From positions 1 through 23,151 of the IMG/VR virus record IMGVR_UViG_3300025828_000205: a DNA stretch of 23,151 bases; one strand, 5' to 3'. How positions within the stretch are numbered: position 1 is the stretch's first letter; the number at the start of each line of letters is the position of its first letter. Positions 4,652-8,770 of the stretch are shown here, piece after piece. A model generated the notes under the pieces. It saw only the letters and a program-made list of their open reading frames with translations, did not search any database and was not told the origin of the DNA. The position numbers and the translations under genes are program-made. The DNA comes from a virus.

Positions 4652-4682
4652 CAAATATACACTTTATTTTAATATAAACTAA
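4652..4682 (-). promoter_or_regulatory. Bacteroidota-type promoter candidate
   Basis: The minus strand shows TATATTTG at 4659-4652, a perfect match to the Bacteroidota -7 box TAnnTTTG, 23 bases upstream of the chosen ATG at 4628. The -33 region is weaker: TTAG with 19 bases spacing instead of TTTG/TTG. The segment is very AT-rich and lies just after the helicase stop codon. It would start transcription of the 96-aa gene and the nin-like block. Confidence 0.5.
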
Positions 4683-5971
4683 AAAGGTGCTGAATTTTTT
4701 TGTTCTTGAATCACATCGTCGGCATACCTGATCAACTCGGGAATCCAACTTACCTTCATCTTGCCCGTGCTACCTGCTCGGTTCTTCGCTATTATCCACT
4801 CACCCTTCCCTTCGGTGTTTGAGCCATCGTCGAACTCCATTAGTCCGTAATACTCTGGTCGGTGAAGGAAGCAAACCATATCGGCCTCCTGCTCTATTGA
4901 GCCTGATTCGCGAAGGTCTGATAACATCGGCTGCTTATTACCGCGCTCCTCTACTTTTCTGTTTAATTGGCTCAATGCGATTACCGTGCATTTGTGTTGC
5001 TTTGCAAGGTTCTTCATTGCCGTTGCGATCTCGTTAATTTCCTGCTCTCGCATATCCTTTGTGCCTGATATCCTTTGAATGTAGTCCACTGCTATTAAGT
5101 CTATCTTGCGCTTTCCTGCTTCCACTTGGATTCGGTTTTGAATCTGCGGAAGGGTTACCGATTCATCGATTGTTAAGTTCCACTTCTCGATTAGTGCAGC
5201 TGCTTTGTTGATCTTAATCCACTCTTCTTGGCTCAATCTTTTTCTTCTCATCTGCTCGGAATCTATCTTGGTGAGTTGAATAATCATTCGGCCTATTAAC
5301 TCCGATGCAGTCATTTCTGCACTAACTACGTGAACGGACTTTCCATCGTAGCAGGCCTGCATTACCTCTCCAATCATTGCGGCCGTCTTACCCATTGCTG
5401 GCCGTGCTGCGAAGATAATTAGTTGTCCGGGTTGATAACCTCCAGTGAACTTGGTCATCATCTCAATACTGGACCTGATGCGGCTCGTGTCTGATTCTTG
5501 CAGTTGATCAATGAAGGTTTTTATTTGTGTCGTTGTGTCCTCGATTCGGTTGCCGTCTATCTGGACTGCTTCCTGGTAGTATTCGCCTACTTTTTTGAGC
5601 ACGGTATCTATTGGATCGGCAAGGTTTATGGTCTTTATCTTGAGTGCTAACATCTCGATATTGCGCTTCATTTCCATCTCCAATAGTTGAGTAACGTAAT
5701 ACTCGATGCGCTCATTAGCTACCTTTTCCTGAAGCGTGAGTAGCATTACGGACCAACCCTCTTCTGGTGGTGTTTCGGTCTTTAGCTCGTGATCGAGTGC
5801 GAATACGTCGATTGTAGCTTTGTTGGATAATCTTTGCATTGCTCTCCATATCTTGCGATGTGGCTCGAAGTAAAAACTGGTTTCTCGAATCATTGAAGCG
5901 TATTGGAAGTAAAGTTGATTCCAGATGATGAACCTTCCCAGTACGCCTTCTTCGATGGTCTTGTCGTTCAT
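4679..5971 (-). CDS. dnaB: Replicative DNA helicase, DnaB family
   Basis: A 430-residue hexameric helicase that unwinds the replication fork 5' to 3'. The N-terminal domain (about 1-150) is DnaB-like. The RecA-like ATPase domain starts near residue 177 with GGYQPGQLIIFAARPAMGKT, where ARPAMGKTA is Walker A. DLIAVDYIQRISG near residue 290 is Walker B with the DYIQ signature. VIALSQLNRKVEERGNKQP and SDLRESGSIEQEADMV are the H3/H4 motifs, followed by FLHRPEYYG. Length is close to bacterial DnaB (about 450-470) but slightly short. The gene is ATGA-coupled to the initiator-like gene, so initiator and helicase are made together, as with lambda O and P. No separate DnaC-type loader is visible; the initiator's C-terminal domain may recruit the helicase. 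Confidence 0.95.
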   Translation of the reverse strand: MNDKTIEEGVLGRFIIWNQLYFQYASMIRETSFYFEPHRKIWRAMQRLSNKATIDVFALDHELKTETPPEEGWSVMLLTLQEKVANERIEYYVTQLLEMEMKRNIEMLALKIKTINLADPIDTVLKKVGEYYQEAVQIDGNRIEDTTTQIKTFIDQLQESDTSRIRSSIEMMTKFTGGYQPGQLIIFAARPAMGKTAAMIGEVMQACYDGKSVHVVSAEMTASELIGRMIIQLTKIDSEQMRRKRLSQEEWIKINKAAALIEKWNLTIDESVTLPQIQNRIQVEAGKRKIDLIAVDYIQRISGTKDMREQEINEIATAMKNLAKQHKCTVIALSQLNRKVEERGNKQPMLSDLRESGSIEQEADMVCFLHRPEYYGLMEFDDGSNTEGKGEWIIAKNRAGSTGKMKVSWIPELIRYADDVIQEQKNSAPF

Positions 5972-6624
5972 AAGTTGATAGATTGGTAGTTGTTAGTTTT
6001 GGTGGACAATTTACTAAATTGATTCCGATCGTCGTTGCGGAGCCAATTACTCAATGCGCTTTTGTAGTTCTTGTACTTCTTGTTCTTCGCTTGGCAATAG
6101 TCCACTAACGTATCGAATGCCTTGCCGATGTCCTTATCTTTGAACTTAGGCGCGAGTTCCCGGACCACTCTCTCCCTTTCCTGAATGAAGTTGTTTAAGG
6201 TGTTATATATATTAGTTTCTTTATTACTATCTATATTATTATTATAGTGTAAACTTTGTTTACTATCATCGTGTAAACTTTGTTTACTATCGGTGTAAAC
6301 TTTCTTTACAGTGTGTAAACTTTGTTTACTATCCTTATTTAGCTTCTCAACTGTATCATACCACAAGGTCGTGGACCGAAGATAGCTGGTGTTCTCGTCT
6401 TTCTCAATAAGGCCCTTTTCAATCAAACGATTAATAATCTTATGGACCGCGATTCGTGAAATGTTTAATGCATCTGCAAACCATTGCTTCGATGCGTAGC
6501 ACCATCCTGGAATGTTACTACCGTTATAAGCACTCAGCCTATAAACCATTGAAGCTACTATGTATTCATTGGTGCTGATGTCGAGCTTCTTCTGCTCCTC
6601 GTGAAAAATTGTGGTGTATCTCAT
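5968..6624 (-). CDS. Winged-helix replication initiator-like protein carrying the candidate origin
   Basis: A 218-residue protein starting MRYTTIFHEEQKKLDISTNE. The N-terminal part (about 1-90) reads as a winged-helix DNA-binding domain: YIVASMVYRLSA, WFADALNISRIAVHKIINRL as the helix-turn-helix, then LIEKGLIEKDE as the wing. The middle (about 100-140) is a low-complexity linker with three copies of DSKQSLH, encoded by the iteron array. The C-terminal part (about 145-205) is helical and ends in YKSALSNWLRND, resembling the end of DnaD/RepA-type phage replication proteins. The frame is open further upstream to 6849; an in-frame ATG at 6720 would add 32 residues but would translate through a terminator hairpin, so I prefer 6624. 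Role inferred: binds the repeats in its own gene and recruits the helicase encoded next. Confidence 0.75.
   Translation of the reverse strand: MRYTTIFHEEQKKLDISTNEYIVASMVYRLSAYNGSNIPGWCYASKQWFADALNISRIAVHKIINRLIEKGLIEKDENTSYLRSTTLWYDTVEKLNKDSKQSLHTVKKVYTDSKQSLHDDSKQSLHYNNNIDSNKETNIYNTLNNFIQERERVVRELAPKFKDKDIGKAFDTLVDYCQAKNKKYKNYKSALSNWLRNDDRNQFSKLSTKTNNYQSINL
6201..6333 (-). other. Candidate phage replication origin (iterons plus AT-rich region)
   Basis: Inside the initiator-like gene, four dyad repeats (6247-6333) are bordered on the downstream side of the gene by an AT-rich stretch (6201-6246, roughly 85% A+T by eye, with runs such as TTATATATATTAG). Iterons within the initiator gene, followed by an AT-rich unwinding element, is the layout of the lambda origin inside gene O. 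The flanking genes (a DnaA domain IV protein upstream, a DnaB helicase downstream) fit a replication module. Function is inferred from architecture. Confidence 0.6.
6247..6333. repeat. Four tandem iterons with internal dyad symmetry
   Basis: Four copies start at 6247, 6271, 6293 and 6313 (steps of 24, 22 and 20 bases, about two helical turns). The core is GTAAACTTTGTTTAC, a perfect 6-bp dyad around TTT, at 6249-6263, 6273-6287 and 6315-6329. Copy three (6295-6309) has one changed base (CTTTAC for GTTTAC), breaking perfect symmetry. Copies are preceded by GT, and three are followed by TATC. They encode DSKQSLH peptides in the protein linker. Too short and too closely spaced for a CRISPR array. 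Confidence 0.9.
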
Positions 6625-6635
6625 AATGTACAAAT

Positions 6636-6670
6636 AAAAACCCCCGCGTCGATTGGACAAAACGCAGGGG
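6636..6670 (-). terminator. Rho-independent terminator upstream of the initiator gene
   Basis: The minus-strand RNA forms a 9-bp stem CCCCTGCGT/ACGCGGGGG (one G-U pair) around a 12-base loop, followed by five T. The stem occupies 6641-6649 and 6662-6670, and the T-tract 6636-6640. It lies between the DnaA-like gene and the chosen start of the initiator gene (6624), so it would reduce read-through into replication genes. The G-U pair becomes a mismatch on the plus strand, supporting minus-strand function. Confidence 0.7.
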
Positions 6671-6715
6671 TGATCATAGAAACTAAAACTAAATCTGTAC
6701 GGAAGGTGTCCAATC
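6651..6715 (-). promoter_or_regulatory. Putative antiterminator pairing (attenuator) of the initiator leader
   Basis: GATTGGACA at 6651-6659 (plus strand) and TGTCCAATC at 6707-6715 form a perfect 9-bp inverted repeat. In the minus-strand RNA, the upstream GATTGGACA can pair with TGTCCAATC inside the terminator loop, which could form a pseudoknot or compete with the terminator. The upstream arm lies at codons 2-4 of an in-frame leader ORF (ATG at 6720), so a translating ribosome would cover it. The complementarity is seen; the regulatory role is inference. Confidence 0.4.
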
Positions 6716-6739
6716 TTCATTGCTAATATAAAAAAAATA

Positions 6740-7138
6740 TTAATACCTCCGATAATAGTCAAATAATTTTTGCCGAAGGATATCCAACGTGTTTTCAATC
6801 CGCTCATCGAATGGCATCTGATTATTGATGGTGCGAACGTAGTGAACAACGCTGGAGTGATCGCGATTGATAAATCCTCCTATCGTGTAATAGGTGATCC
6901 CTGCATCCTCTTTGAGCAGATAACCGTAGTACATCCTCGCCATTACTTTGGGTTGCTTACGATTGGGTGATTGCGCCTCCTGAACCGTTACTCCGAAGTG
7001 ATCGCAACAAACCTTGAGTACTTCGAATGGGTTTACCTTCCTGAACTCGTACCATTGCATTGGCCGATTGTACTCGACCTTGCCCTCTGGTGCAACGGGT
7101 GCTACCTTCTCTACCGAATAAGTGTAAACCGATTTCAT
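6740..7138 (-). CDS. Stand-alone DnaA domain IV-like protein
   Basis: A 132-residue protein whose C-terminal half matches domain IV of the bacterial initiator DnaA, the part that binds DnaA boxes. The block RKQPKVMARMYYGYLL (60-75), then TYYTIGGFINRDHSSVVHYV (82-101), contains the helix-turn-helix and the DnaA signature RDHS-V-H; FDERIENTLDILRQKL follows. The AAA+ ATPase domain III is absent, so it cannot act as a full initiator. It may read DnaA boxes, divert host DnaA, or act with the initiator-like protein encoded downstream. VNPFEVLKVCCDHFGVTVQE (35-54) matches the start of domain IV. An internal Met27 is another possible start, but ATGA coupling to the exonuclease gene supports 7138. Confidence 0.8.
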   Translation of the reverse strand: MKSVYTYSVEKVAPVAPEGKVEYNRPMQWYEFRKVNPFEVLKVCCDHFGVTVQEAQSPNRKQPKVMARMYYGYLLKEDAGITYYTIGGFINRDHSSVVHYVRTINNQMPFDERIENTLDILRQKLFDYYRRY

Positions 7139-7746: not shown

Positions 7747-8306
7747 TTTGCTTGATTTGCTTGGATTAGTAATGCCTCACGGTCTGCACCGGTGAGCTTG
7801 AATTTACGATCTATCTGATTGATGTTTACCGTGTTATCACGGAGTGCGAGTACCGCCTTCTGCCAAGTTGGAGTACCTGGTTTCAGTTCCTCTTTACTCG
7901 GTGCGGGTTGGTTACGCTTCATTGCGCGCTCTCCATCGTCGTCGTTCTCTGCATTAAGTGATAACGCTGCGCTGATGGAATAACGCCGAGCGTAGGTAAT
8001 AGCTGAACCCATCGCTTGTGGATCTTTCTCTTTTGCAGCTACTAACTCTGTACCGAGAATGGAAACGTACTGCCCTGATGAATGTACGAAGGTGGTAACG
8101 ATGTGGTTCTCGTGTACGGGTTGGAATACTGCCAAGCCGTGTTCCTGAAGAACGGGTTCTACCTCGTTAAGGATTGCAGAAAGGTCTGCGTACTTGGATT
8201 TGAAGAAAGGGTTTTTACTTCCTTTGGTGATTGAACCGATGTGGCTCTTTGCTGCAACGAGTGCCTTTAGCACCTCGTCTGCATTGGGTGACTGTTGAAT
8301 AAACAT
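7743..8306 (-). CDS. erf: ERF-family single-strand annealing recombinase
   Basis: A 187-residue protein of the ERF superfamily (P22 Erf-like). Diagnostic parts are NPFFKSKYADLSAILNEVEP (32-51), HGLAVFQPV, and MGSAITYARRYSISAALSL (99-117), followed by the acidic ENDDDGE. Erf proteins form rings that anneal complementary single strands, here supplied by the exonuclease encoded immediately downstream. The C-terminal 50 residues, after a proline-rich linker (PAPSKEELKPGTPTW), look like a small helical partner-binding domain. The gene sits near the start of the early unit behind a consensus promoter. Confidence 0.92.
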   Translation of the reverse strand: MFIQQSPNADEVLKALVAAKSHIGSITKGSKNPFFKSKYADLSAILNEVEPVLQEHGLAVFQPVHENHIVTTFVHSSGQYVSILGTELVAAKEKDPQAMGSAITYARRYSISAALSLNAENDDDGERAMKRNQPAPSKEELKPGTPTWQKAVLALRDNTVNINQIDRKFKLTGADREALLIQANQAK

Positions 8307-8309
8307 AAT

Positions 8310-8402
8310 TTAATGGTTTGATTGATTAGTAAACTTGTTGTCTGCGTACTGCTGGAGTTTTGCCCAGCCGATGAATAGTGCGATAAAAAGTAGTGCGTTC
8401 AT
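8310..8402 (-). CDS. 30-aa membrane micropeptide (candidate)
   Basis: A 31-codon frame fills the 100-base gap between the 63-aa gene and erf: ATG at 8402, 4 bases after the upstream stop, and TAA at 8310, 3 bases before the erf start. The peptide begins MNALLFIALFIGWAKL, one hydrophobic segment of about 12 residues, and then has a polar tail. Tight spacing on both sides and a plausible membrane segment argue for a real gene, but its size makes chance possible. No family is recognised. Confidence 0.5.
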   Translation of the reverse strand: MNALLFIALFIGWAKLQQYADNKFTNQSNH

Positions 8403-8406
8403 ATTT

Positions 8407-8598
8407 TTAGAATTTACTGTGGTCGTTCATAAACTTTACTAACATCTCTGTATTGAGTGTCTTGAGCCAATCTGCGATATCCTCGTTGGCCAAGCTGCGT
8501 GCGTTAGTATCAAAATAAATTTGAGCTGCAAGACTTGCAAGCTGATTGTGGCTTACTTTCTTAGCGTAGTCGGTCCAGTCTGTTGTTTTAGTTGTCAT
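8407..8598 (-). CDS. Hypothetical 63-aa protein, first gene of the early unit
   Basis: I chose the ATG at 8598 (MTTKTTDWTDYAKKVSHNQL) because the longer frame to 8730 would run through both a consensus promoter and a terminator. The protein is soluble and helical, with short amphipathic segments (NQLASLAAQIYF and DIADWLKTL). No family is recognised. It is the first gene behind the promoter at 8630-8658, with 31 bases between the -7 box and the ATG, a typical place for small early proteins acting on the host. Confidence 0.7.
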   Translation of the reverse strand: MTTKTTDWTDYAKKVSHNQLASLAAQIYFDTNARSLANEDIADWLKTLNTEMLVKFMNDHSKF

Positions 8599-8629
8599 TG
8601 TGTAGTTGATTAAATGATTAATTCTTTGA

Positions 8630-8658
8630 CAAATATAACACTTTTCAACAAACCACAA
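8630..8658 (-). promoter_or_regulatory. Consensus Bacteroidota promoter of the early/replication unit
   Basis: The minus strand shows TTG (8658-8656), an 18-base spacer, and TATATTTG (8637-8630). This matches the Bacteroidota promoter TTG-N17..23-TAnnTTTG at every defined base. It lies between the late-unit terminator (8691-8719) and the first early gene (ATG 8598), as expected for a new transcription start. The predicted start is a few bases downstream of 8630. Confidence 0.8.
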
Positions 8659-8690
8659 CACAAAATGCAAGTTTTTTTTACTTAAGGCAT

Positions 8691-8719
8691 AAAAAAAGGC
8701 CCGAGAATCAACCCGAGCC
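8691..8719 (-). terminator. Terminator of the structural/lysis unit
   Basis: The minus-strand RNA gives an 8-bp stem, GGCTCGGG/CTCGGGCC, with two G-U pairs and the loop TTGATT (8698-8719), followed by seven T (8697-8691). Because of the G-U pairs, the plus strand cannot form the same stem, so it acts on minus-strand transcription. It closes the late operon just before the early promoter. Confidence 0.85.
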
Positions 8720-8770
8720 ATACTAATCAACTATCAAACTACTTCGTAAAGATACGGAATCTAACCCGTA

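Follow-up and report, generated by a model that had tools for sequence, protein, structure and literature searches.

A probable lambda-style replication origin of dyad iterons inside the initiator gene of an uncultured phage

The window (the whole stretch of DNA that was analysed) is a virus record of 23,151 bases that is possibly a fragment. It carries an initiator gene followed by a gene for a DnaB-type replicative helicase (Table 1). A preliminary description made from the sequence had proposed a winged-helix gene coupled to a DnaB gene, and both were found, with a 4-bp overlap of stop and start codons. The initiator protein matches PHROG families of DnaD-like loaders and O-like initiators (E 7e-10 to 6e-4). 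The best match is the DnaD-like phrog_186 (7e-10), and four O-like PHROGs match with E values from 3.8e-8 to 4e-6. No Pfam family matched the initiator at its curated cut-off, and the RepA_N domain (PF06970) was not among the matches listed at E 0.1. The AlphaFold2 model, made from an alignment of six sequences, is poor overall (mean pLDDT 60.8, pTM 0.44); its winged helix is confident and residues 101-140 have a pLDDT below 50, as expected if the linker that the array encodes is disordered. A fold search with the winged-helix model returned only weak MarR-like matches (E 1.6e-3 or worse, none at E 0.001). Just upstream of the initiator gene, at 6740-7138 on the minus strand, a 132-aa protein is encoded that contains a DnaA DNA-binding domain only (PF08299, E 1.1e-12); Cellulophaga phage phi46:1 and Tenacibaculum phage Gundel_1 have weakly related proteins. 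The phage had been assigned to Bacteroidota. The nearest Erf matches, which are Nonlabens phages, agree with this assignment whereas the nearest DnaB matches come from mixed hosts, and a Bacteroidota host is only suggested by these similarities.

Table 1. Features of the initiator locus (window positions; iterons numbered in gene order)
Feature	Position	Strand	Remarks
DnaB-type replicative helicase	4679..5971	-	Identified by Pfam; ATG overlaps initiator stop by 4 bp
Initiator gene, 218 aa	5968..6624	-	ATG at 6624; contains all four dyads
C-terminal helical region	5986..6225	-	About residues 134-213; low model confidence; presumed partner-binding part
A+T-rich element, candidate DNA unwinding element	6201..6248		87.5% A+T; encodes Asn-rich stretch
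Iteron 4	6249..6263	+	Perfect GTAAACTTTGTTTAC; adjoins A+T-rich element
Array-encoded linker	6250..6330	-	Residues 99-125; pLDDT below 50 from residue 101
Iteron 3	6273..6287	+	Perfect GTAAACTTTGTTTAC
Iteron 2	6295..6309	+	GTAAACTTTCTTTAC, one mismatch; other frame, read as VKKVY
Iteron 1	6315..6329	+	Perfect GTAAACTTTGTTTAC; adjoins winged-helix part
Winged-helix DNA-binding part	6355..6594	-	About residues 11-90; pLDDT 73-94 by blocks of ten
Putative recognition helix	6418..6456	-	Residues 57-69 in model; motif SRIAVHK at residues 56-62

The dyad array consists of four 15-bp copies of GTAAACTTTGTTTAC, three perfect and one with a single change, and spans 6249-6329. All four had been reported before and were found again at the same spacing, with start-to-start steps of 24, 22 and 20 on the plus strand. 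The shrinking of the step by two bases had been called odd. The step shrinks along the plus strand but grows along the gene, which is read on the minus strand, where the steps are 20, 22 and 24 toward the A+T-rich side. The iterons of phage lambda vary as well (20, 24 and 23), and a varying step is therefore not odd. When both strands of the window were searched for the dyad at three mismatches or fewer, nine matches were found compared to a shuffle mean of 1.04 and a maximum of 4; in this count the three perfect copies score on both strands, and two of the matches lie elsewhere in the window. In a whole-window search for direct repeats of at least 16 nt (seed 12), the array was the only tandem family with at least three copies, and the one further three-copy family was dispersed. 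The array lies about 300 bp into the initiator gene, not at its start, and the order along the gene is winged helix, dyads, A+T-rich stretch (encoding an Asn-rich peptide) and C-terminal helices. The stretch of roughly 85% A+T that had been seen beside the dyads reaches 87.5% at 6201-6248 versus 55.8% for the whole window. This is the window maximum for 48-mers, attained by five overlapping 48-mers that are all located here, and the next peaks elsewhere reach 85.4%. The A+T fraction is 0.83 after the array, on the C-terminal-coding side, versus 0.57 before it. A search of open-licence papers found neither an exact match to the dyad, forward or reverse, nor the string SKQSLH, and no paper that brings together Bacteroides phage, replication initiation and iteron; this is weak evidence for novelty.

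Among the closest known systems is the ori of phage lambda. As a positive control, lambda gene O was put to the repeat detector, which recovered its annotated iterons at a score of 39 (threshold 36). The lambda iterons (TCCCTCAAAACGAGGGA) form four dyads at steps of 20, 24 and 23 with copies in three frames, and the A+T fraction is 0.60 before the array and 0.68 after it, on the C-terminal side. Like the window, lambda ori thus has a set of four dyad iterons midway along the gene at steps of about two turns in mixed frames, an A-rich iteron centre on the coding strand and an A+T-rich element on the C-terminal side. The two differ in their neighbours, since gene P lies next to O in lambda whereas the window phage has its own DnaB gene next and no P-type loader there; lambda P is the loader for host DnaB. 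They also differ in the sequences of dyad and protein, the proteins being linked at the profile level only (phrog_678, E 3.8e-8). The O genes of lambda and lambdoid Stx phages have been described as containing iterons inside the initiator gene that adjoin an A+T-rich element (PMC7466680). Similarly, oriL of phage SPP1 lies within gene 38, which encodes the origin-binding protein gp38, and is described as having direct repeats and an A+T-rich unwinding element (PMC6316719), so that by description it too resembles the window in having both elements inside the initiator gene. SPP1 also has another origin and encodes its loader separately as gp39 (PMC6316719), whereas no second array was found in the 23-kb record of the window, which may be a fragment. 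The Rep protein of the staphylococcal plasmid pSK41 has a winged-helix N-terminal domain, four Rep boxes in the centre of the rep gene and a central linker encoded by the ori, and its C-terminal domain binds DnaG (PMC5703833). This RepA_N initiator shares the winged helix, the four central sites and the ori-encoded linker with the window, but it is a plasmid initiator while the window is from a phage and has no RepA_N Pfam match. Systems of the lambda O, SPP1 gp38 and pSK41 RepA_N kind are established, and the predicted origin of the window is a fresh example.

Relatives of the array were sought both by DNA pattern and by protein similarity. When the viral collection was scanned for two copies of GTAAACnnnGTTTAC, 21 stretches were obtained, 17 of them in winged-helix initiator-like genes (10 distinct). 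Seven of the 21 are near-identical to the window, two are from one phage pair (L021/L027), eight are in further distinct winged-helix genes (L012, L013, L016, L018, L019, L023, L025 and L028) and four are outside initiators. The window and seven others of the ten distinct genes match phrog_186 over the array gene. L028 has no such match and was linked by tblastn; in L023 the phrog_186 match lies elsewhere in the record, and the array gene is linked only by the analyst's alignment. Protein similarity identified relatives with other dyads in the same place (L089, L090, L092, L094-L097 and L213), weaker arrays in L098 and L099, two copies in L093 and an array in L100, a C-terminal relative; L101, also fetched by C-terminal similarity, has no repeats. 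The dyad of L089, again in the same place in the gene, is GGTGCAAAATTTGCACA, and that of L090 is GTCTCAAAATGAGAC with poor copies 2 and 4 (5 and 4 mismatches of 17). Among named phages, the dyad GGTTGGAAAATCCAACC is present in Bacteroides phage BKO1-3 and Parabacteroides phage PD491P1, and related dyads occur in Bacteroides phages B40-8, BF486P1 and BF10P2. Two Flavobacterium phages have weaker repeats, and bajarodcaudo virus 2 has two copies. Lactobacillus phage phiPYB5 carries an array of the GTGAAG type, and Vibrio phage 1.147.O has no array. Judged by these sequences, array and position are retained among the relatives, and it is the dyad that varies.

The spacing recurs in part of this group. 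Steps of 20 and 22 are found in the window, L013, L021, L089 and L090, followed by 24 in the window, L021 and L089; L089 therefore shares all three steps with the window despite its different dyad. L012, L016, L018, L086 and L213 have other steps and belong to the same tree group of ten. Equal steps among relatives can be explained by shared ancestry, whereas a conserved peptide does not explain a change of dyad beneath equal steps. The neighbour downstream of the array gene is DnaB by Pfam in the window and in five of the ten relatives scanned, an IstB/DnaA-type ATPase in one and a gene without a Pfam match in four. Two Bacteroidota phages picked because their neighbouring genes are similar (Nonlabens P12024S and Cellulophaga phi46:1) had no such array in the fetched stretches, with 0 of 14 ORFs in L217 and 0 of 9 in L218. 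Searches with tblastn gave no match for P0001 in 50,697 phage records at E 0.01 and none for the L013 protein in phage records at E 0.001. A less regular array (CCACAAAATCGTGG) occurs in L136, in a winged-helix gene that is followed by DnaB; its steps are 36, 19, 33 and 33, three of which are near three helical turns.

The frequency of such arrays was determined by a census in Bacteroidota genomes with an array score of at least 36 as the threshold and ORFs from the same loci as controls. Arrays were detected in 8 of 49 phrog_186 genes versus 1 of 100 control ORFs (50 of 54 places tested, one without an ORF), in 8 of 23 phrog_678 genes versus 0 of 44 (23 genes of 27 places), and in 4 of 21 phrog_270 genes outside the phrog_678 set versus 0 of 39 (21 genes from 30 loci of 43 places, nine being repeats of phrog_678 genes). 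Genes recur between the phrog_186 census and the other two, and the distinct array genes number 14 over the three families, as the families overlap. The majority of census genes have no detectable array. Some of the detected arrays are weak or in frame, namely L137 and L198 (in-frame repeats), L193, and L109, which has no clear dyad. A search of 395 genomes with profile A1, run without a positive control, gave nothing at 1e-5, and the GTAAAC tandem pattern was found among 395 Bacteroidota genomes only in the centre genome G001, whose site was already known. A set of 30 arrays, lambda included, was assembled by hand from DNA patterns, the DNA repeat detector and protein searches combined, so that proportions in it describe arrays, not all initiators, and ignore kinship. 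Excluded were near-duplicates (L094, L096, L097, L099, L151 and near-copies of the window and L021), weak or peptide-like repeats (L109, L137 and L198), pattern matches outside initiator genes (L015, L017, L022, L024, L085 and L087) and chromosomal matches. In this set 69 of 90 steps are 19-25 bp long, and the C-terminal side is the more A+T-rich one in 28 of the 30 arrays (sign test 1.1e-7, ignoring kinship), the exceptions being L136, where it is less so, and L098, where the sides are equal.

Since the array lies within a gene, its repeats could have been selected as DNA or as peptide. The array had been described as encoding a DSKQSLH linker between two domains. The linker position stands, and three copies encode SKQSLH, but iteron 2 is read as VKKVY instead of SKQSL, the steps of 20 and 22 not being multiples of three. 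The chance that selection for a DSKQSLH-repeat peptide produced the array is negligible even with SKQSLH encoded three times. Copies occupy more than one reading frame in the window and in 28 of the 30 arrays (exceptions L093 and L193), and the three SKQSLH copies use identical codons. When residues 97-130 were resampled with the peptide fixed and with the codon usage of the window's own record, four dyads arose in 0 of 100,000 trials and the maximum, three, arose 16 times. The frame-shifted copy and the resampling thus point to selection on the DNA of the array and not on the DSKQSLH peptide. For the window, peptide selection as the cause of the repeats is ruled out by the copy in another frame. 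None of the relatives examined keeps the peptide linker without the dyads, and several keep the dyads and alter the peptide. In L006, the nearest diverged relative, none of 17 differences falls within the 60 dyad bases, but only about 1.6 would be expected there, so this is not significant.

With dyads in the linker that follows the winged helix, an A+T-rich C-terminal side, frame-independent DNA and the same layout in lambda and in relatives, the proposal of a lambda-like origin has held up at the level of sequence. The element is very probably the replication origin of the phage, located inside the initiator gene in the style of lambda O, SPP1 gp38 and RepA_N, and this intragenic origin is well formed and probably functional. 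It is quite unlikely that the array is mainly an operator through which a MarR-like winged-helix protein represses its own operon or blocks dnaB transcription. MarR-type folds are the nearest, if weak, structural matches, and a GTAAACnnnGTTTAC pair lies upstream of an ORF that is MarR-like by eye in Acidobacteria (L041), but an array about 300 bp into a gene, the one-sided A+T-rich flank beside 28 of 30 similar arrays, a layout equal to that of the annotated lambda ori and a replicative helicase as the partner gene argue against an operator. Moreover, binding and autoregulation are compatible with an origin. There is a slight chance that replication starts elsewhere by means of the DnaA-domain-IV-like protein encoded at 6740-7138 and that the array serves just for helicase assembly or as an accessory site. 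The PF08299 match of this protein is above the cut-off and its gene is just upstream of the initiator gene, yet neither of two DnaA-box patterns counted is enriched in the window (TTWTNCACA occurs once versus 2.24 expected, and six sites are within one mismatch of TTATCCACA versus 5.89 expected), and no other tandem array was found there. An even smaller probability attaches to a structured RNA element with hairpins in the mRNA. The predicted fold of the transcript is better than that of each of 200 shuffles (z -4.02), as expected of a set of dyads, but the copy with one change breaks its own dyad and remains a direct repeat, 5900-6800 has no Rfam match, and the conserved steps and the A+T-rich flank would be left unexplained.

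If the array is the origin, replication would be initiated by the initiator in several steps that we infer by analogy with lambda O, SPP1 gp38 and pSK41 Rep. The N-terminal winged-helix domain would bind each 15-bp dyad as a dimer, and four dimers about two helical turns apart would assemble into a nucleoprotein complex along a single face of the double helix. Its assembly would melt the A+T-rich element that adjoins the array toward the C-terminal coding end. The C-terminal part of the protein would recruit the phage's own DnaB, the product of the next, overlapping gene, and replication would start here. The linker between the domains would be disordered, its exact residues being of little importance, which would leave the DNA beneath free to act as the origin. 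A GC-skew switch, suggested earlier as a sign of an origin at 6.2 kb, was not found as a lasting feature; the skew shows no more than slight positive excursions at 5501-6250 and 7751-8750. By the analyst's reading of the ORF list, the likely genes run nearly all in one direction, which bears on the missing switch. The locus pins the predicted origin of an uncultured phage group to a definite place.

The recognition helix may be related to the type of dyad. The motif [ST][RK]x[GA][VLI]xK is present at the start of this predicted helix in 9 of 9 genes classed as having GT(A/G)AAC half-sites and an A-rich centre and in 0 of 21 others, with the motif defined after the data were seen and the classes drawn post hoc by the analyst. 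The class is loose with regard to the A-rich centre (the dyad centres of L013 are AAA, TTA and CTA), and the 21 others include L019, L023 and L025, which have GTAAAC half-sites, G/C-rich centres and no helix motif. L028 and L093 are in another branch (support 99/97) together with proteins of Bacteroides and Flavobacterium phages that have different dyads. On a tree built without the helix residues, in which 3 of 27 inner branches are well supported, dyad type requires five changes. There are three well-supported independent pairs, all in the same direction (sign test p 0.25); when L019, L023 and L025 are moved to the GTAAAC class, two of the three pairs agree and one does not differ. A prospective search with the back-translated helix motif found only L013, the source itself. 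The association is a lead, not proof. We give even odds to the reading that the residues of the recognition helix set the dyad (the motif going with GT(A/G)AAC half-sites), that helix and dyad change together by evolution or cassette exchange, and that it is mainly the geometry that is held, i.e., about two turns, with the steps widening as 20-22-24 toward the unwinding element in some members of the clade. If true, one could read from sequence where many uncultured phages start replication and what their initiators recognise. This co-change within a kept layout is the point that would deserve follow-up. Because relatives keep the layout with other dyads, their genes offer natural pairs of helix and binding site for specificity tests, and such pairs would allow phage initiator specificity to be probed directly and origins to be proposed in metagenomic phages.

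Several observations were made in passing. The initiator homologue of L012 (10065-10718) has an in-frame TGA at the Trp of the GWC motif, which does not vary in alignment A2; this would fit a phage that reads TGA as Trp. Two phage-record matches of the DnaA-like gene, L219 and L220 (MT836067.1 and MT835860.1, deposited as 'Bacteriophage sp.'), appear by eye to be a bacterial dnaA-recF-gyrB region and were left out of later comparisons. Pairs of GTAAACnnnGTTTAC are also found in bacterial chromosomes (55 stretches); the surroundings that were viewed contain no initiator gene, and the half-site by itself therefore does not single out origins. In an Acidobacteria contig (L041) such a pair, at 2745-2783, is just upstream of the MarR-like ORF, and several other Acidobacteria loci have comparable pairs 26-28 bp apart. 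Many Rheinheimera (L030, L046, L056 and L069) and Marinomonas (L034, L035 and L049) chromosomes have pairs 35-36 bp apart, start to start, which are possibly operators of another regulator.
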